The notes under the pieces are model-generated. The model was not told where the DNA came from. It did no database searches and saw nothing but the letters and a program-made list of their open reading frames with translations. 64,000 bases of DNA from Sulfurifustis variabilis (GTDB taxonomy: Bacteria; Pseudomonadota; Gammaproteobacteria; Acidiferrobacterales; Sulfurifustaceae), in contig NZ_AP014936.1 of assembly GCF_002355415.1 (NCBI RefSeq), positions 992,001 through 1,056,000 of the forward strand. Direction: 5' to 3'. The number at the start of each line of letters is the position of its first letter. Position 1 is the stretch's first letter. Below are positions 35,223-53,912 of the stretch, piece by piece. A program made the translations under genes and the position numbers.

Positions 35223-35386
35223 GGACTAATGATAGGCCGGCCCGCTTGTGGCAGCATTAGACGAGGAAGCGCACAGCGGCGGCGGTTCGAGCGTCGGCGA
35301 GTCACCCTGGCGATCGCCGACTTCGCCGCGCGTCGCGGCCACGAGGCCTTGTCGCGGCGGTCGAGCGCTCTGCCGAGGAGAAAGTG

Positions 35387-35629
35387 ATGCAAGGTTACCA
35401 TCTGGATCCCGAGGGAGGCGTTGCCCAGGAACACTACGCCGTGATCTACGCGCCGCGGCGCGAGCGCGGGCGCTTTGCCGAGGAGTGCGTGGAGGTCATG
35501 GCGTCGGAGGCCGATGCCCGGTCGGCGGCCGAGCCGGACAAAAAGCGTTATGCCGCCAAGGTCGTGGGACCCGCCCGGTCTTCCGAGGGCTTTCGCCTCT
35601 ATTACCTCGTGTGCTGGCTGGACGAGTGA
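35387..35629 (+). CDS. small protein of unknown function
   Basis: The 80-residue protein starts at ATG behind GAGGAG with 6-base spacing (a GTG three bases earlier is possible). It contains MQGYHLDPEGG, then YAVIYAPRRERGRFAEECVEVM, and ends with FRLYYLVCWLDE. I do not recognise a family. The alternating hydrophobic pattern suggests a small beta-rich domain. It lies 192 bp upstream of the cold-shock gene on the same strand. Confidence 0.6.
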   Translation: MQGYHLDPEGGVAQEHYAVIYAPRRERGRFAEECVEVMASEADARSAAEPDKKRYAAKVVGPARSSEGFRLYYLVCWLDE

Positions 35630-36144: not shown

Positions 36145-37005
36145 ATGAAACCCAAAGACGCACCCGCCATGGCCACACCCGACCATCCCTCGATCGAGCG
36201 CCGCCGCAACGCGGTCAAGGCGTACGAGAACGAGGGCTTCCTCAACAGCCGGGACGCCCGGGCGCTCCGCATCCTGGCCGAGTACCTCGAGCCGAACAGC
36301 CGCTTCGCGCATTACCGCGTCGACGACACGATCGTCTTCATGGGATCGGCGCGGTTCATCTCGCGCGAGGACGCCGAGCGCGAGGTCGCGGAGGCCGAGG
36401 CGGGACGCGGCGATTCCGCGCGCGCGAAGCAGCGGCTCGCGATGTCGGTCTACTACGAAGCGGCGCGCGAGCTCGCGCATCGTCTGACCGACTGGTCCAA
36501 GCAGCTGAACGACGAGGACCGGCGCTTCGTCGTGTGCACGGGCGGCGGGCCCGGGATCATGGAGGCGGCGAACCGGGGGGCCTCCGAGGCGCGCGGCATG
36601 AACGTGGGCCTCACGATCTCGATCCCGGTCGAGGAGTTCGACAACCGCTACGTGACCCGCGAGCTGTCGTTCCACTTCCACTACTTCTTCATGCGCAAGT
36701 TCTGGTTCGCGTACCTGGCCAAGGCGGTGATCGTGTTCCCCGGCGGGTTCGGGACGCTCGACGAGCTGTTCGAGGTGCTGACGCTCCTGCAGACGCGCAA
36801 GATCCGCAAGCATCTGCCCGTCGTGCTCTTCGGCACCGGGTACTGGAACGAGGTGATCAACTTCGACGCGCTCGTGCGCTCCGGCACGATCAACGCCGAG
36901 GACCTGGATCTCTTCTTCCGCACCGACTCGGTCGACGAGGCTTACGAGTACGTGGTGAACCAGCTGAGCAAGTACTCGATGCAGGAGCCGGGCGCGATAC
37001 TCTAG
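36145..37005 (+). CDS. LOG-family (TIGR00730-like) nucleotide phosphoribohydrolase
   Basis: The 286-residue protein has the LOG motif VFPGGFGTLDELFE near residue 195 (PGGxGT) and a preceding CTGGGPGIMEAANRGA nucleotide site near residue 131. LOG enzymes release the free base from nucleoside 5'-monophosphates. The longer length and the N-terminal extension of about 60 residues resemble bacterial decarboxylase-like members whose substrate is uncertain. It starts at ATG. The AT-rich dyad repeat follows the stop directly. Confidence 0.85.
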   Translation: MKPKDAPAMATPDHPSIERRRNAVKAYENEGFLNSRDARALRILAEYLEPNSRFAHYRVDDTIVFMGSARFISREDAEREVAEAEAGRGDSARAKQRLAMSVYYEAARELAHRLTDWSKQLNDEDRRFVVCTGGGPGIMEAANRGASEARGMNVGLTISIPVEEFDNRYVTRELSFHFHYFFMRKFWFAYLAKAVIVFPGGFGTLDELFEVLTLLQTRKIRKHLPVVLFGTGYWNEVINFDALVRSGTINAEDLDLFFRTDSVDEAYEYVVNQLSKYSMQEPGAIL

Positions 37006-37012
37006 AAAGGCA

Positions 37013-37100
37013 ATGTTGAATTTTGAATTCTGAATGTTGAATGTCGGTGCGCGCGCAGCGCGCCTCAGTGATTCAACATTAAGCATTAAACATTCAAAAT
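37013..37100. repeat. AT-rich dyad repeat, copy 1
   Basis: An 88-base AT-rich block in GC-rich DNA. The left arm (37013-37043) is built of TTGAAT/TGTTGAAT units. The right arm (37071-37100) reads ATTCAACATTAAGCATTAAAC and then ATTCAAAAT. The arms are near-complementary and flank a GC-rich core (GTGCGCGCGCAGCGCGC). A second copy with the same arms and a similar core lies at 52394-52475. Confidence 0.75.
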
Positions 37101-37115
37101 CGCGGTTGCCATGCC

Positions 37116-38906
37116 ATGCACGGTCCGGTCCTTCGAATCGCGCGTACCCTGACGCTCCCGCTCGGGCGGCTTTCCGAGCGCCTCGGCAACCGCTTCTACA
37201 TCGGGCTGGCCGTGGTCCTCGCTGCGGCGTTCGCGTGGGCGATCCTCGCGGGCCACACGGGCGGCCTCAAGAATCGGGCGTACGACGCCATCATGAAGAG
37301 CCGCTTCAACGTGCCGGCGGCCGATCCGGACATCGTGCTGGTCGACATCGACGAGGCGAGCCTCGCGGCCATGGCACCGCAGTACGGGCGATGGCCGTGG
37401 CCGCGCAGCGTCATGGCGGAGCTGGTCGAAGGGCTCGCTCGCCAGGGTTCCGGCGCGATCGTTTTCGACATCACCTTCAGCGACCCCGACGTTTTCCAGA
37501 TCGAGGCGGACCGTTACTTCCGGGAGGTCGCGGCGGGAACCCCGAGCACCTTCTTCCCGATGATCCGGCTCAACCCGGAGAACGATCCGCTGAGCGGGCT
37601 CCGCCTCGCCGAGATCCCCGGCGTCGTGCCTCTCGACCCGTCGGCCCCGGCGGAGGCGACGGTCGCGATGGTCGTTCCGTACTTCCTCGACGCGCTCGAC
37701 GGCCGGCGCCTCGGCACGAACAACCTGTACGCCGACGAGGACGGCATCGCCCGGCGCTACCACGTCCACCGCGACGTCCGCGGCTGGCGCATCTATTCGC
37801 TGCCCGCGAACGTCGTCGCCGCCCTCGGCGGCGCGGTCCCCGGGCAGACCGATATCCTGCTCAACTGGCGCGGACGTCCGCCGGCGTTTCGCACGGTGAG
37901 CTTCGCGCCGCTCTACGCCGACCTCCTCAAGCAGAAACGCGAGCGCCCCGAAAACGAGTTCGCGGGAAAGATCGTCGTGATCGGCTCGACCGCGCCCTCG
38001 CTGTTCGACCTCAAGCCGACGTCCGTCGCGCGCGATCATCCCGGGCTCGAGATCCTGGCGACCGGCATCGACAACCTCAAGAACGGCGATTACCTCACCG
38101 AGCTGCCGGGGGCCGTGTACGTGGTCGTGACGATGCTGGGACTCGCGCTGCTCGCGGCCGCCTTCGTGTACAACGCGGACTACCGCCTGGTCCGGTCCCT
38201 GTTCACGCTCGTCCAGACCGGTTTCATCGTCGTCACGTACCTGTTTCTCAACTACTCGACGGTCTTCGTCGACCTCACCGTGCCGTTCACGGCGGGCCTC
38301 GCCTACTTCTTCGTCGCCAGCACCTACGGCATGGCGCTGACGCTCCGGCGGAACGGCGATCCCCTGTTCTCGACCGCGCTCGACACGGGTCGCGAGTGCC
38401 AGGTGCTGTTCCTGGTCGCGCGGTTCGGCGGGACGCACGCCGGCGCGAGGCGCCGGGTGCAGGCGGCGCTGTCGCGGCAGCTCGGCCTCACGCGCTACGG
38501 CGCGGCGGCGACCCGCCTCTTCAAGTCGGCGCCGCTCCTGCACGATCTGTATCGGGACGCGGCGCTCTACTACTGGCTCGTCGGCCCCGAAGCGACCCGT
38601 CCGGCGATCGAGGACCTGTTCCGGATGGTGACGCGCACGTTTGCGCGCCAGCCGCGCGAGCGCCGCGAAGCGGCCGGCCTCGTGCTCGCGCTGCACACCG
38701 CGCGCTTCACCGTCGACGCCGAGGGCCGCTGGCGCGATCAGGGCAAGCGCAGGTTCGTGGATGCGCTCGCGCAGGTGGACGGCGCGGGACCGACGGTGCG
38801 CCTCGATCCCGCCTTCGTGGCGCTGTGCCGCGAGCAGGGCAAGGAACTTCCGCCCGTCTTCGACGTTCCGACGGAAGAACGGGAGCCGCGCGTCCCACCG
38901 ATATAG
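37116..38906 (+). CDS. CHASE2-domain membrane protein, unknown C-terminus
   Basis: The 596-residue protein starts at ATG. One helix (about 27-44) is followed by an extracellular CHASE2 domain (about 50-325: DIVLVDIDEASLAAM, RWPWPRSVMAELVEGL, IVFDITFSDPD). Three helices follow at about 330-410. The 185-residue cytoplasmic tail has no GGDEF, kinase or adenylate cyclase motif, whereas CHASE2 normally feeds such an output domain. The tail is helical (LFLVARFGGTHAGARRR, ALYYWLVGPEATRPAIEDLF) and unrecognised. It begins a tight run of five genes. Confidence 0.82.
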   Translation: MHGPVLRIARTLTLPLGRLSERLGNRFYIGLAVVLAAAFAWAILAGHTGGLKNRAYDAIMKSRFNVPAADPDIVLVDIDEASLAAMAPQYGRWPWPRSVMAELVEGLARQGSGAIVFDITFSDPDVFQIEADRYFREVAAGTPSTFFPMIRLNPENDPLSGLRLAEIPGVVPLDPSAPAEATVAMVVPYFLDALDGRRLGTNNLYADEDGIARRYHVHRDVRGWRIYSLPANVVAALGGAVPGQTDILLNWRGRPPAFRTVSFAPLYADLLKQKRERPENEFAGKIVVIGSTAPSLFDLKPTSVARDHPGLEILATGIDNLKNGDYLTELPGAVYVVVTMLGLALLAAAFVYNADYRLVRSLFTLVQTGFIVVTYLFLNYSTVFVDLTVPFTAGLAYFFVASTYGMALTLRRNGDPLFSTALDTGRECQVLFLVARFGGTHAGARRRVQAALSRQLGLTRYGAAATRLFKSAPLLHDLYRDAALYYWLVGPEATRPAIEDLFRMVTRTFARQPRERREAAGLVLALHTARFTVDAEGRWRDQGKRRFVDALAQVDGAGPTVRLDPAFVALCREQGKELPPVFDVPTEEREPRVPPI

Positions 38907-38916
38907 AATGGTCGCC

Positions 38917-39591
38917 ATGAGGAAGCCGTCCAGGAACCGTCTCGTTCACGCGCTCGTCGCCGCGCTGCTGGCGGCCGGATGCGGCAGCGAAGCGCCGCCG
39001 AAGCCCGCGACCTCCGCGCCGACGTCACCGGCGCCGGCCGCGCCGGACGACGCGCCCGCGTCGGGCACCGCGAAAACGGGAGGTGCCCCGTCGCCCGCCA
39101 AAAGCGTCCCGCCGGCGACGGACGGTGCGGCAGGATCCGCGAAGATGGCGCCGACCTCCGGTACCGTGCTCCGCGAAACCGAGCTCAAGGACAAACCCTT
39201 CGTCGACGCCGGGACCGTGCGCAAGCTTCCGCCGAAGACCGCGCTCGTCATCGTCGACCGGCAGTCCGGCTGGCTGCGCGTCAGCGTCGCGGGCCAGCAG
39301 GGCTGGGTGCGGCTGCTCCACGTGAGCAGCGGTCCCCCCGGGAGCGGGGCCAGCCAGCAGGAGCTGGAGTCGTTCGCGAAGCTCGCGACCGGGCGCGCGG
39401 GGACCGGCAACGTGGTCGCGACCACCGGCATCCGCGGCCTCGACGAGGAGCAGCTCAAGACCGCGCAGCCCGATCCCGAGGAGCTCGAGAAGCTCGAGAG
39501 CTACGGCGTGACCCGCCAGCAGGCCGCCGAGTACGCGCGACGGCACAAGCTCGAGGCGCGCAAGGTCGCGCACCTGGCGGCGCCGAAGTGA
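38917..39591 (+). CDS. SH3-domain putative lipoprotein
   Basis: The 224-residue protein has a leader ending in ALLAAGC (lipobox-like), then a Pro/Ala/Thr-rich linker to about residue 90. A bacterial SH3-like domain covers about 90-145 (LRETELKDKPFVDAGTVRKLP, SGWLRVSVAGQQGWVRLLHV). A helical C-terminal part ends with YGVTRQQAAEYARRHKLEAR. Bacterial SH3 domains bind peptidoglycan or peptides. An ATG at 38908 is also possible. It lies 10 bp after the CHASE2 gene and 8 bp before the M48 gene. Confidence 0.78.
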   Translation: MRKPSRNRLVHALVAALLAAGCGSEAPPKPATSAPTSPAPAAPDDAPASGTAKTGGAPSPAKSVPPATDGAAGSAKMAPTSGTVLRETELKDKPFVDAGTVRKLPPKTALVIVDRQSGWLRVSVAGQQGWVRLLHVSSGPPGSGASQQELESFAKLATGRAGTGNVVATTGIRGLDEEQLKTAQPDPEELEKLESYGVTRQQAAEYARRHKLEARKVAHLAAPK

Positions 39592-39599
39592 GCGGGACC

Positions 39600-40418
39600 A
39601 TGATGCGGCGCCCGGCGATCCTGCTCCTCGTCCTGCTCGCGGGCACGCAGGTGGCCGCAGCCGCCGACAGCCTGCGTTCCAAACTCACCGAACGTCTCTC
39701 CGAATCGCAGCGCATGCTGCTCGCGGTCACGGAGGAGGACGAAATCGCCGTCGGCCGGCGGGTCGCGGCCAACCTGCTCGGTGTCGCCCCGCTCGTGAAG
39801 GACGACAAGCTCCAGCGCTACGTGAACACCGTTGGCCGCTGGGTGGCGGCGCAGAGCAGCCGGCCGGACCTGCCGTGGCGCTTCGGCGTGGTCGAGTCGG
39901 CGGACGTCAACGCGTTCGCCGGGCCCGGCGGCTATATCCTGGTCACGCGCGGCCTCTATGCCTCGTTGAGCGACGAGTCGGAGCTCGCCGGCGTGCTCGC
40001 GCACGAGATCGCGCACGTGATCGAGCGCCACCACATCGAGCTCATGCGCAAGACGACGCTCATCGAGGAGGGTCGCAAGGCGCTGGAGAAGCAGGTGGGC
40101 GACAAGGAGGAACTGGTGCGCAGGCTCGTGGGCAGCGGTGCGCAGATCTTCGCGCGCCGGCTCGACCAGGCGGCGGAGTTCGAGGCGGACCGCAAGGGCG
40201 TCGTGCTCGCCGCGCGCGCCGGGTATGGCCCCTACGGGCTGCCGGCCGTGCTCCAGAAGATCGGAAGCGTGGCGAAGTCCGACGACCGGGTGCAGCTGCT
40301 CTTCAAGACGCATCCGCCCGTCGAGGAACGGCTGCGCATGCTGGACCGGGTCATGGGCGCCGAGTTTCTCCGTTACGAGCGGCCCGGAGCGGGCGGTGCC
40401 CTGGCGCCCCTCAGATGA
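39600..40418 (+). CDS. M48-family periplasmic metalloprotease
   Basis: The 272-residue protein has a signal peptide ([15 protein letters not shown]), a zinc HExxH motif as HEIAH (H135, H139) and a third ligand at E195 in EFEADRKG. There is no TPR tail, so it resembles LoiP/YcaL rather than BepA. Such proteases handle misfolded outer-membrane or lipoprotein substrates. The gene starts 8 bp after the SH3 lipoprotein gene and is followed after 7 bp by the exonuclease gene. Confidence 0.88.
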
Positions 40419-40425
40419 GACGGGC

Positions 40426-41001
40426 ATGAACCGGGAACCCGAGATCTACGTGAGCACCGACATCGAGGCGGACGGGCCGATTCCCGGTCCGCACTCGATG
40501 CTGAGCCTCGCGTCGGCGGCCTACCTCGCCGACGGAACGCTGCTCGGCACCTATACCGCGAACCTGGAGACGCTTCCGGGCGCCGGCCCGGACGAGCGCA
40601 CGATGGCGTGGTGGCGCGGCTTCCCCGACGCCTGGGCCGCGTGCCGCCGGGAGACGCGCGCGCCCGAGCACGTGATGCGCGACTACCTCGGCTGGCTGAA
40701 GACGCTGTCCGGGCGCCTGGTGTTCGTCGGCTGGCCCGCCTCCTGGGATTTCATGTGGGTCTACTGGTACCTGGTTCGCTTCACCGGCGAGCGACCGTTT
40801 CGCGAGAACGCGCTCGACGTGCGCTCGTACGCCATGGGCATGCGCAAGACGGAGTTTCGGCAGACCTCGCGCACGTATCTTCCGAAGCGCTGGTTCGACG
40901 AGAGCATGCCGCACACGCACGTCGCGCTCGACGACGCGCGCGAGCAGGGGACGATGTTCCTCAACATGCACGCCGAGAACCTCAAGGGGCCGGCCAAATG
41001 A
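40426..41001 (+). CDS. DEDDh 3'-5' exonuclease-like protein
   Basis: The 191-residue protein starts at ATG. It has STDIEADGP (D12 and E14, the first DEDD residues) and ends with [13 protein letters not shown], which supplies the DEDDh-type His and Asp. Between them lie [17 protein letters not shown] and [12 protein letters not shown]. The fold is that of RNase D/ExoX-type exonucleases, but the substrate (RNA or DNA) is not known. It is an unusual neighbour for the exported proteins on either side. Confidence 0.8.
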
Positions 41002-41693
41002 AGCGCCGCGTCGCGGGCTTCGCCTGGCTGGTCGTGCTGGCGCTCACCACGGCCTGCGCGCCGCCGCCCGCCGTGGGCGCGGGGGCCGAGCCCGCCGTCA
41101 ACGAGCCGTACCGCGACCCGGATTACGAGTCGTGGGTGCAGCGTTTCGAGCGCCCGGGCCGCGAGGTCTACGACCGGCGCCTCGACATCCTCCAGGCGAG
41201 CGGAGTCGCGCCGGGCATGACGGTCGCCGACATCGGCGCCGGCACGGGGCTGTTCGTGCGCCTGTTCGCGAAAGAGGTGGGACCGGCCGGCAAGGTGTAC
41301 GCGGTCGATATCTCGAAGAACTTCATCGACAACGTGCTGCGCACGGCACGCGAGCAGGGACTCGCGAACGTCACCGGCATCGTGAACACCCAGACGGACA
41401 CGAAGCTGCCCGCGCAGTCGGTCGACCTCGCTTTCAGCTCGGACGCCTACCACCACTTCGAGCACCCGCGCGAGATGCTGTCCTCGATTCATCGCGCGCT
41501 GAAGCCCGGCGGCCGGCTCGTCGTGATCGACTTCCGGCGCGAGCCCGGCAGGAGCTCCGCGTGGGTGCTCGGGCACGTGCGGCTCGGCAGGGACGAGGCC
41601 GTCCGCGAGATCGAGGCGGCCGGCTTCCGCCTGATCGAGGACCGGGACTTCCTGCGGGAGAACTACTTCCTGAAGTTCGAGAAGGCCGGCTGA
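40998..41693 (+). CDS. exported or lipid-anchored SAM-dependent methyltransferase
   Basis: The 231-residue protein overlaps the exonuclease stop as ATGA. A leader ends with VLALTTAC, a lipobox-like site at about residue 20. It is followed by a class I methyltransferase domain with motif [16 protein letters not shown] near residue 77 and the Asp/Glu region [18 protein letters not shown] is normally cytosolic, so a periplasmic methyltransferase is odd. The leader could instead act as a simple membrane anchor. Related proteins with a leader are known in proteobacteria. Confidence 0.78.
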
Positions 41694-52393: not shown

Positions 52394-52475
52394 TTGAATG
52401 TCGAGTTTAATGTTGAATTGAAGTGCGCGGGAGCGCGCTCCCTATTCAACATTAAACATTAAGCATTCAAAATTT
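52394..52475. repeat. AT-rich dyad repeat, copy 2
   Basis: The left arm (52394-52420) is TTGAATGTCGAGTTTAATG followed by TTGAATTG. The right arm (52444-52475) is ATTCAACATTAAACATTAAGC followed by ATTCAAAATTT. The core is GC-rich (GTGCGCGGGAGCGCGC). The arms and core match copy 1 at 37013-37100, with the internal TTAAGC and TTAAAC units in swapped order. It lies between the phosphatase and spoVR. Confidence 0.75.
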
Positions 52476-52481
52476 CTTTAC

Positions 52482-53912
52482 TCAGTTCTTGATTCGCTCG
52501 AAGCCGGACTCGGTGCGGGAGAACGTGACCGACGCGTCCTTGAGGCGGGTTTCGAGCAGCACCGGCCGGCCCCAGAGCTGGTACAGGTAACCCATCGTCT
52601 TCTCGACGTACTCCATTTCGAGGTCACGCCCGTCGTGCTCGTGGCGGAGGAGCAGGGCCCGGTTGTGGCGGTAGTCGGCGTCGACGATGCGAATCACGGG
52701 CACGGTGCCCATCCCCACGTTGCGGAGCAACGTCTGCTTGATCGTCATCCAGTGCTCCTCGTCCGCGACCTGCGAGACGACGAGCTTGTCGCGCTCGCGC
52801 TTGTACTCGAACATATGGAGCTCTTCCATGAGCTCCCGCGTCAGGAATCGGCGCAGGAACGAAATGTCGCGGTCGGTTTCCCGCACCTCGAAGAGCTTTT
52901 CGCGCGCGCCCTTTTCCGGAGGGCCGTGCCGGCGGACCTCCTCGTCGGTCGGGGCCGAATAACGGCGCTCGATGTCGTGCCAGACCTTGAAACCGAGGTG
53001 ATACGGGTTCACGGACCCCTTGTGCGGGCGGACCACCTGGTTGTGGTGCACCAGGAACTCGAGATAGAGGTCCTCGGGCAGGTCGATCGAGTTCATGATC
53101 CGGTGGTGCCAGTAGCTCGCCCAGCCCTCGTTCATGATCTTGGTCTCGATCTGGGGCAGGAAGTACTGGGTCTGCGCGTGGACGATCCGAAGCAGGTCGC
53201 GCTGCCATTCGGTCAGGTACGGGTTGTGCTCGGCGATGAACAGGAGCAGATCCTCTTCCGGATCGATGGGTACGCGGTTGAGGTTCGGCTCCTTGTACTC
53301 CGGCCGCTTGTGGATCGCCTCGTAGGGATCGTGCGGCGGCACGGCGTCGGCGAGCGCCCGGTCGCGCTGCTCGTCCAGGGTGAGCTTGCGGATCGCCGTG
53401 TCGCGCCGCGTCTGCATCGAGAGCGCGTGCGCGGCGTCGAGCGTCTCCTCCACCTTCTGCTGGCCGATGGAAGGATCCTCGAGATAGTGCCGGATGCGGT
53501 CGGCGTGCAGCTTGAACAGGCTGATCGTGAGCTCCGGGCGCGTGTCGCGGAACATGAAGTTGTTCCGGAAGAAGTCGTTGTGCCCGTAGACGTGCGCGAT
53601 GGTGAGGACCTGCAGGCAGAGCGAGTTGTCGCGCATCAGGTAGGCGAGCGACGGGTTCGCGTTGATCACCATCTCGTAGGGCAGGCCCGAGACGCCGTAG
53701 TCGTACAGCGTCTTGAGCTTCTCGTAGGCCTTGCCGAAGGACCAGTGCGGATACTGCGCCGGCATCCCGTGGTAGGCCATGTAACCGAGCATGTGCTCCT
53801 GGTCGCACACGTCGAACTCCTGCGGAAAGCAGGAGAGACCGTACTCCTCCGCCTTCTCGCGGATGCGCTCGTCCCAGTACTCGAGATCCTTCAGCGTCCA
53901 GGTGCGGCTCAT
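52482..53912 (-). CDS. spoVR: SpoVR family protein
   Basis: The 476-residue soluble protein starts at ATG (MSRTWTLKDLEYWDERI). It has the SpoVR signature regions HMLGYMAYHGMPAQYPHWSFGK, LTIAHVYGHNDFFRNN and ETKIMNEGWASYWHHRIM. E. coli YcgB is the homologue. Function is unknown, but it belongs to a stress operon with prkA and yeaH in proteobacteria and to a sporulation role in Bacillus. The ATG overlaps the yeaH stop. Confidence 0.95.
   Translation of the reverse strand: MSRTWTLKDLEYWDERIREKAEEYGLSCFPQEFDVCDQEHMLGYMAYHGMPAQYPHWSFGKAYEKLKTLYDYGVSGLPYEMVINANPSLAYLMRDNSLCLQVLTIAHVYGHNDFFRNNFMFRDTRPELTISLFKLHADRIRHYLEDPSIGQQKVEETLDAAHALSMQTRRDTAIRKLTLDEQRDRALADAVPPHDPYEAIHKRPEYKEPNLNRVPIDPEEDLLLFIAEHNPYLTEWQRDLLRIVHAQTQYFLPQIETKIMNEGWASYWHHRIMNSIDLPEDLYLEFLVHHNQVVRPHKGSVNPYHLGFKVWHDIERRYSAPTDEEVRRHGPPEKGAREKLFEVRETDRDISFLRRFLTRELMEELHMFEYKRERDKLVVSQVADEEHWMTIKQTLLRNVGMGTVPVIRIVDADYRHNRALLLRHEHDGRDLEMEYVEKTMGYLYQLWGRPVLLETRLKDASVTFSRTESGFERIKN

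Follow-up and report, generated by a model that had tools for sequence, protein, structure and literature searches.

The CHASE2, SH3 and M48 genes of the sulfur-oxidising bacterium Sulfurifustis variabilis belong to a three-gene unit that is found in Pseudomonadota and Nitrospirota and in which the usual output of the CHASE2 protein is a class III nucleotide cyclase. In a derived clade that includes Sulfurifustis, the cyclase-type domain of the CHASE2 protein has persisted under purifying selection without its catalytic residues. The analyzed stretch of 64,000 nucleotides (the window) carries this unit at the head of a five-gene run, which is composite, the three-gene envelope-sensing unit being followed by two unrelated neighbours.

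The five genes (Table 1) lie on one strand with gaps of 10, 8 and 7 bp and one ATGA overlap, as described in the initial annotation and borne out by the coordinates of the open reading frames. An alternative start of the SH3 gene at 38908 would leave a gap of 1 bp after the CHASE2 gene. A promoter scan returned no sites against 0.3 expected, and terminator-like sites numbered 3 against 2.8 expected, counts at which both are uninformative. No Rfam family matched within the window at gathering score. The palindrome between the LOG and CHASE2 genes has a related copy at about 52405-52485.

Table 1. Positions of the features in the window, with the evidence for each
Feature	Coordinates	Strand	Evidence or remark
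Conserved ORF (81 aa) belonging to the LOG-exonuclease neighbourhood	35384..35629	+	relatives' loci
LOG / lysine-decarboxylase-like protein	36145..37005	+	left-hand neighbour of the trio
Imperfect palindrome	37010..37103	.	arms of 33 nt with 82% complementarity; lies between the LOG and CHASE2 genes
CHASE2 receptor	37116..38906	+	596 aa; Pfam CHASE2, AF2 models, VIA-align, catalytic columns
Predicted C-terminal pseudocyclase domain (residues 403-596, modelled separately)	38322..38903	+	AF2, VIA-align, catalytic columns
Exported SH3 protein	38917..39591	+	signal peptide and possible lipobox (AAGC) read by eye; a motif around ATTGIRG is conserved at the C-terminus
M48 zinc metalloprotease	39600..40418	+	Pfam; signal peptide by eye
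DEDDh-type 3'-5' exonuclease	40426..41001	+	solved-structure match; catalytic residues
Class I methyltransferase	40998..41693	+	Pfam; N-terminal export signal by eye

The CHASE2, SH3 and M48 genes of the window are adjacent and have the same order and strand as the trio elsewhere. A complete trio with a cyclase domain was present at 20 of the 40 class loci inspected (the SH3 protein was seen by profile alone in 7 of the 20), and one further class locus was cut before M48. In Nitrospirota, CHASE2, cyclase and M48 surrounded the SH3 match at 17 of 30 inspected loci. None of these 37 loci (20 class, 17 Nitrospirota) contributed to the SH3 profile. SH3 and M48 occurred without CHASE2 at 16 of the 40 class loci. 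The inspected loci were a non-random choice made by score and profile coverage. Of the genomes with SH3 matches, the own genome apart, the inspection covered 40 of 85 in the class sample, 30 of 35 in Nitrospirota and 11 of 65 others in the phylum sample. An envelope-sensing set of the kind first proposed does exist, and it comprises three genes (CHASE2, SH3 and M48), not five. Among the matches listed in a literature search with limited coverage of subscription journals, no description of this trio was found.

Taken alone, the SH3 protein of the window is a weak match (Pfam SH3_4, E 0.066; no match at E 0.01); it is the exception among ten aligned members, the other nine of which match Pfam SH3_3. 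Its annotation as an SH3 lipoprotein holds for the SH3 part through these nine members; the lipobox was read by eye, and the Cys at its position is absent in at least four relatives (L033, L048, L050 and L052); lipidation is accordingly not a constant feature. The M48 zinc protease was correctly recognized, with a Pfam Peptidase_M48 match of E 9.9e-30 and a zinc site, HExxH plus a distal Glu (H135, E136, H139, E193), that is invariant in 10 of 10 sequences. The NCBIfam BepA model matches residues 42-150 of this protein (E 2.9e-30), and its equivalog cut-off is not reached (105.5 bits vs 570).

The CHASE2 domain (Pfam PF05226, E 1.7e-46) covers residues 41-348 of its protein, which comprises an N-terminal transmembrane segment, the periplasmic CHASE2 domain, three helices read as transmembrane segments, and a cytoplasmic C-terminal domain (C-domain, about residues 420-575). 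The C-terminus has no match in Pfam, including Guanylate_cyc, or in NCBIfam, and to this extent the sensor indeed lacks a known output domain; the predicted structure, however, has a cyclase-type fold. The AF2 model of the C-domain has a mean pLDDT of 86.8 and a pTM of 0.81. Among the matches listed by VIA-align, which re-aligns only the top 1000 of Foldseek, all 50 for the full-length model are class III cyclases (Z 8.1-9.6); for the C-domain, such cyclases account for 42 of 50 (Z 7.8-9.7). This fold belongs to a predicted model and is weak in Foldseek, and the highest Z of 9.7 is moderate, since best values of 7-8 are common for unmatched models. An hhalign comparison of 12 pseudo C-domains with 6 cyclase domains was not significant (P 0.12 over 30 columns), and the cyclase relation therefore draws its support from fold, context and tree; neither Foldseek nor hhalign proves it by itself.

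Six alignment columns, which we take to be the two metal-binding Asp, the substrate residues, and the transition-state Asn and Arg, read R D D R A G in the window protein vs D K D T N R in every one of the 29 relatives that carry a cyclase. The MAFFT alignment behind these columns spans very diverged sequences, and because the 29 owe their label to tblastn matches with intact cyclases, the set is biased towards intact ones. Only the second Asp of the catalytic set is kept in the window C-domain, and none of 16 pseudo members keeps all six residues. In the CHASE2 tree, the pseudo members group as a single clade (15 rows, support 100/100) nested in a clade of 30 rows, the remaining 15 of which are cyclase-bearing. 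The M48 proteins of the pseudo trios fall within one clade of 9 (100/99) in their own tree; roots were placed at the midpoint. The trees and the residue table took in CHASE2 ORFs longer than 500 aa, which excluded L087 and L117 (and L046, from the residue table only); L037 and L043, which gave no full ORF, are absent from both.

Pfam Guanylate_cyc matches were obtained in four trio relatives (E 2.8e-26 to 1.3e-32), and no match to PF00211, the class III cyclase family, was found in four genomes with the pseudo form, namely Sulfurifustis (G000), G004, G008 and G012. Of the 14 genomes of the family that have the pseudo form, 11 show no SH3 or M48 gene beside it, the downstream side being cut in 2 of the 11. 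A heterodimer with an intact CHASE2 cyclase was also considered for Sulfurifustis; it was dropped because the only other CHASE2 match of the genome, in which PF00211 is unmatched, is a CHASE2-Ser/Thr kinase and not a cyclase.

The model, its structural neighbours, the catalytic columns, the nested clade and dN/dS together speak most for a class III cyclase domain that has degenerated as the C-terminus of the window CHASE2 protein. This C-terminus could instead be a degenerate GGDEF domain, a c-di-GMP receptor like PelD through which the trio would feed c-di-GMP signalling. A GGDEF-containing protein is the best Foldseek match (E 1.1e-3), class III cyclases not coming first, and GGDEF and PelD chains account for 8 of the 50 matches listed by VIA-align for the C-domain (Z 7.7-8.3). 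Class III cyclases nevertheless rank higher in VIA-align, and all 29 homologous CHASE2 proteins scored, labelled by tblastn to cyclases, carry a class III cyclase at this place, which makes a GGDEF origin unlikely. Loss of the catalytic set might also mark a decaying, functionless remnant, with only CHASE2 and its membrane parts, or only SH3 and M48, of any importance. Over 15 pairs, dN is higher in the C-domain than in the CHASE2 part by a factor of 1.4 to 3.4, which fits such decay, but omega (dN/dS) is only 0.10-0.28 over 15 pairs, which are of stand-alone pseudo copies (no SH3 or M48 beside) and in many of which dS exceeds 1. Furthermore, 13 of 14 family matches have no internal stop and the 14th takes in its normal stop, two matches being cut by contig ends, and the pseudo form persists in Nitrospirota and G654 as well. 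Decay is accordingly improbable, and the degenerate cyclase remains the preferred reading: the sensor of the Sulfurifustis lineage seems to have lost the signal-making active site and kept the fold. The term pseudocyclase was not found in the literature among the matches listed.

The run as a whole had been taken for one functional operon, in which CHASE2 senses and the SH3 protein, protease, exonuclease and methyltransferase respond together. The last two genes are largely what they were called. The Pfam match of the exonuclease (Rv2179c-like, E 0.0029) stays under the cut-off, but the protein matches the solved 3'-5' exonuclease 7t2s (E 5e-15); D12, E14, D108, H165 and D170, assigned to the DEDDh motifs by eye, are invariant in 3 of 3 sequences, which upholds the DEDDh label. 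The methyltransferase matches Pfam Methyltransf_31 (E 4.4e-20), its export signal being read by eye only. Tight spacing on one strand favours a five-gene operon, as do the adjacency of exonuclease and methyltransferase in G006 and G007 and the cohesion of four genes in a sister genus. This genus is the only other one in which at least four of the five were found together (CHASE2-SH3-M48-exonuclease in G008; split over two contigs in G012), and all five occur together only in the S. variabilis genome among the stretches read. Against the operon, the exonuclease is present in 15 of 59 other relatives and lies beside the trio in only 2; in the remaining 13 the stretch read is free of trio genes (upstream side of G009 cut by a contig end). 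Likewise, the methyltransferase is present in 6 of 40 others, none with a trio gene in the stretch read (1.5 kb on each side in G020), and clustering of the ORFs lying up to 5 kb from 53 loci (trios or SH3-M48 pairs) gave no further neighbour common to more than 5 loci. LOG directly adjoins the exonuclease in five other genomes (G024, G029, G033, G037 and G043), and the trio stands between the two in Sulfurifustis and G008, with G012 consistent. The exonuclease and methyltransferase therefore belong to the LOG neighbourhood and are neighbours of the trio, not parts of it; joint function of all five genes is hardly to be expected.

The explanation that probably accounts for the whole combines the conserved trio, a catalytically dead and constrained cyclase-type domain, and a composite run with LOG-neighbourhood genes, to which a proposed signalling scheme is added. 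In the periplasm, the exported SH3 protein and the M48 protease would monitor components of the envelope or process them, and CHASE2 would relay the state of the envelope across the inner membrane. The cytoplasmic pseudocyclase would make no cyclic nucleotide and might signal by nucleotide binding or by docking of a protein partner; a receptor or docking role is the most likely use of this dead domain. We suggest more tentatively that a former class III cyclase now serves as a non-catalytic receptor or docking domain, in cells where no class III cyclase is detectable. If so, an envelope second-messenger pathway would have been rewired to a different output with its periplasmic input unchanged, and the trio might constitute an undescribed cross-phylum envelope signalling system.

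The ligands of CHASE2 domains are described as largely unknown in the accessible part of one report (PMC5192318). That CHASE2 cyclases recur in two phyla together with an M48 protease and an exported SH3 protein provides concrete candidates for the input side, and the dead-cyclase clade offers a natural experiment separating sensing from cyclic-nucleotide output. The run also illustrates that tight one-strand spacing can join unrelated gene sets, 2 of the 5 genes here being synteny neighbours. Among known systems, the BiofilmReg operon of Burkholderia contaminans, consisting of a response regulator, a LysM-FecR protein, a CHASE2 histidine kinase and DUF4136, likewise places a CHASE2 sensor beside an exported protein with a peptidoglycan-binding-type domain; its output is a histidine kinase and its partner LysM-FecR, and no M48 protease is mentioned in the accessible text (PMC5192318). 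Periplasmic M48 proteases of the BepA / LoiP type share the M48 domain with a signal peptide, but the NCBIfam BepA model has a length of 483 vs 272 aa for the Sulfurifustis protein. The extra part of BepA is a TPR domain. PelD, a degenerate GGDEF receptor, resembles the C-domain in keeping a cyclase-type fold as a signalling domain (VIA-align Z 7.7-8.0, some entries with c-di-GMP bound); it differs in its GGDEF lineage and is not known to have a CHASE2 or SH3-M48 context. The cyclases CyaD1, CyaD2 and CyaK of Sinorhizobium meliloti belong to class III. According to the accessible part of the source, they are CHASE2 cyclases with envelope input via the outer-membrane protein NsrA (PMC13001267), and they share with the trio a CHASE2 sensor, a class III-type adenylate/guanylate cyclase and an envelope input. 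The trio differs in its SH3 protein and M48 protease, which that part of the source does not mention for S. meliloti (PMC13001267), and in the catalytically degenerate cyclase of Sulfurifustis.

The reading frames, spacing and strand proposed for the five genes by the initial annotation are borne out by ORF reading of the window. CHASE2, M48 and the methyltransferase are each backed by a Pfam match, and all 10 M48 sequences compared retain the zinc site. The window protein by itself matches SH3 weakly, but the other 9 of the 10 family members match SH3_3. The exonuclease assignment is supported by a solved homologue (7t2s) and by DEDDh residues conserved in three of three sequences. The single five-gene system that had been suggested is not supported; instead, the evidence supports a three-gene unit, CHASE2-SH3-M48, with a derived, apparently non-catalytic output.

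In relatives, these three genes are repeatedly found together. A profile of the SH3 family (10 sequences) matched 86 of 369 genomes of the class, including S. variabilis, and 40 loci from the 85 others, selected for score and coverage, were read with roughly 5 kb of flank on either side as far as the contig reached. Twenty of the 40, spread over 14 families, contain a CHASE2 protein with a cyclase domain, an SH3 match and M48, in that order; catalytic residues were checked in 18, and SH3 was detected by the profile only in seven. SH3-M48 without CHASE2 occurs in 16 loci (in L114 with SH3 by profile only), two have neither gene beside the SH3 match, and in two the contig ends, once before M48 in a further CHASE2-cyclase locus and once before CHASE2 could appear. 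Pairs without CHASE2 (L092, L094-L097, L099-L101, L103-L106, L109, L114, L116) belong to several families and have diverse, unrelated neighbours. Among 198 Nitrospirota genomes (the phylum of the Nitrospirae MAG G422, itself included), 35 matched and 30 loci were read with 1.5 kb flanks: CHASE2, cyclase and M48 flank the SH3 match in 17, the catalytically degenerate (pseudo) form occurs in two (L157, L158), one CHASE2 protein (L159) has a C-terminus matching neither query, one locus is cut, one consists of just SH3-M48, and in eight the other genes are all missing. In a sample of 299 Pseudomonadota genomes, 66 matched. Eleven other loci inspected there comprise a pseudo trio in another class (G654), cyclase trios in G862 and G662, seven with M48 adjoining SH3 and no CHASE2 in the stretch read, and G820, whose order SH3-M48-CHASE2-cyclase is unlike that of the trio. 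No further neighbour is common to more than 5 of the 53 trio and SH3-M48 loci examined.

The predicted fold of the output domain resembles that of class III cyclases. CHASE2 proteins of four relatives carry a C-terminal Guanylate_cyc domain (Pfam, E 2.8e-26 to 1.3e-32); the window protein has no such match, and hhalign of the pseudo domain against cyclases gave no significant match. Predicted alone from 13 sequences, the domain reached a mean pLDDT of 86.8 and a pTM of 0.81. With VIA-align, which re-aligned Foldseek's top 1000, class III cyclases made up all 50 matches listed for the full-length model (Z 8.1-9.6) and 42 of 50 for the domain model (Z 7.8-9.7), where GGDEF or PelD chains (Z 7.7-8.3) account for the remaining eight. 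Foldseek itself was weaker, ranking a GGDEF-containing protein first (E 1.1e-3). All 29 cyclases, which had been assigned by their similarity to intact ones, carry D K D T N R at six catalytic columns; in an alignment that is uncertain at such distance, the 16 pseudo sequences (including Nitrospirota L188, matching neither query) keep the second Asp in 10, Lys and Asn in one each, and the first Asp, Thr and Arg in none.

In a tree of CHASE2 and the membrane part (44 rows), the 15 pseudo sequences form one clade (support 100/100), nested under midpoint rooting in a 30-row clade (100/99) whose other 15 members bear cyclases. The M48 proteins of pseudo trios all fall in one 9-row clade (100/99), so the trio has largely been inherited as a unit. 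This clade also holds M48 of a cut locus (G429) and of G820, whose CHASE2 is distant and long-branched; G820 is a possible partner swap. Six Sulfuricaulis-type genomes, each with a stand-alone copy, gave 15 pairs, many with dS >1, in which omega was 0.10-0.28 for the C-domain vs 0.10-0.18 for CHASE2, and C-domain dN was 1.4 to 3.4 times that of CHASE2. The low omega and higher dN point to a domain under constraint, but looser.

Searched against 57 genomes of the order, a profile of the pseudocyclase domain matched 14, all of them from a single family with 20 genomes; among the 369 genomes sampled from the class, its only matches were S. variabilis and S. limicola. It lies beside SH3-M48 in three of the 14 (S. 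variabilis, G008, G012); neither gene was found in the stretch read in the other 11, two of which are cut downstream. In S. limicola, about 770 kb separate the pseudocyclase CHASE2 from an SH3-M48 pair whose M48 clusters with those of cyclase-type trios; no class III cyclase (PF00211) was matched, so a cyclase-bearing CHASE2 seems to have been lost. Of 21 genomes searched, S. variabilis, S. limicola, G008 and G012 (89% complete) had no PF00211 match, and G001, G006, G009 and G011 had one or more. The pseudo form is present in each of these eight genomes and thus does not depend on a class III partner in the same cell. S. variabilis has another CHASE2 protein, a Ser/Thr kinase.

Coordinates of the features discussed
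Feature	Location	Strand
Window	992001-1056000 of the single 3,958,814-bp contig	
81-aa ORF	35384..35629	+
LOG (lysine-decarboxylase-like gene)	36145..37005	+
Palindrome, between LOG and CHASE2	37010-37103	
Palindrome, second copy	about 52405-52485	
G820, locus with a different gene order	L245 2131-5794	
S. limicola SH3-M48 pair	L084 5383-7077	
S. limicola pseudocyclase CHASE2	L036 8735-10546	
S. variabilis CHASE2-Ser/Thr kinase, 846 aa	L002 1429-3969 (G000:C1 near 156.9 kb)	

The window reads 81-aa ORF, cold-shock gene, LOG, trio, exonuclease, methyltransferase. The exonuclease is present in 15 of 59 other relatives. It is directly adjacent to LOG in G024, G029, G033, G037 and G043, close to it in reverse order in G001 and G009, and adjoins the 81-aa ORF in G003, G006, G007 and G041; in G008 and, spread over two contigs, in G012, LOG and exonuclease are separated by the trio. 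None of LOG, the 81-aa ORF and the trio was found at the exonuclease of G002 and G020. The methyltransferase, present in 6 of 40 other relatives, adjoins the exonuclease in G006 and G007 and the 81-aa ORF in G002; in all six, the stretch read contains no gene of the trio. As these neighbourhoods occur elsewhere without the trio, the window order is best read as a trio placed inside an older neighbourhood, a direction of change that we infer. The window holds two copies of an imperfect palindrome of roughly 90 bp whose arms are AT-rich and whose core is GC; its arm pattern has a chance expectation of 0.00, and the element could be a dispersed repeat or a bidirectional terminator.

Class III cyclases are dimers, bacterial SH3 domains commonly recognise cell-wall material, and M48 proteases of this type target outer-membrane proteins. 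Export signals, recognised by eye, are supported together with the recurrent partnership, the intact protease site, the sensor architecture, the loss of cyclase residues and purifying selection. SH3 and M48 might report on or process envelope components, CHASE2 would relay envelope state, and the dead cyclase domain could work by binding. No description of the trio was found in literature searches covering CHASE2 with M48, SH3, peptidase, cyclase or FecR. Published parallels are the CHASE2 cyclases of S. meliloti, with input via an outer-membrane protein (PMC13001267), and, in Burkholderia, an operon in which a CHASE2 kinase is paired with a LysM-FecR protein (PMC5192318).
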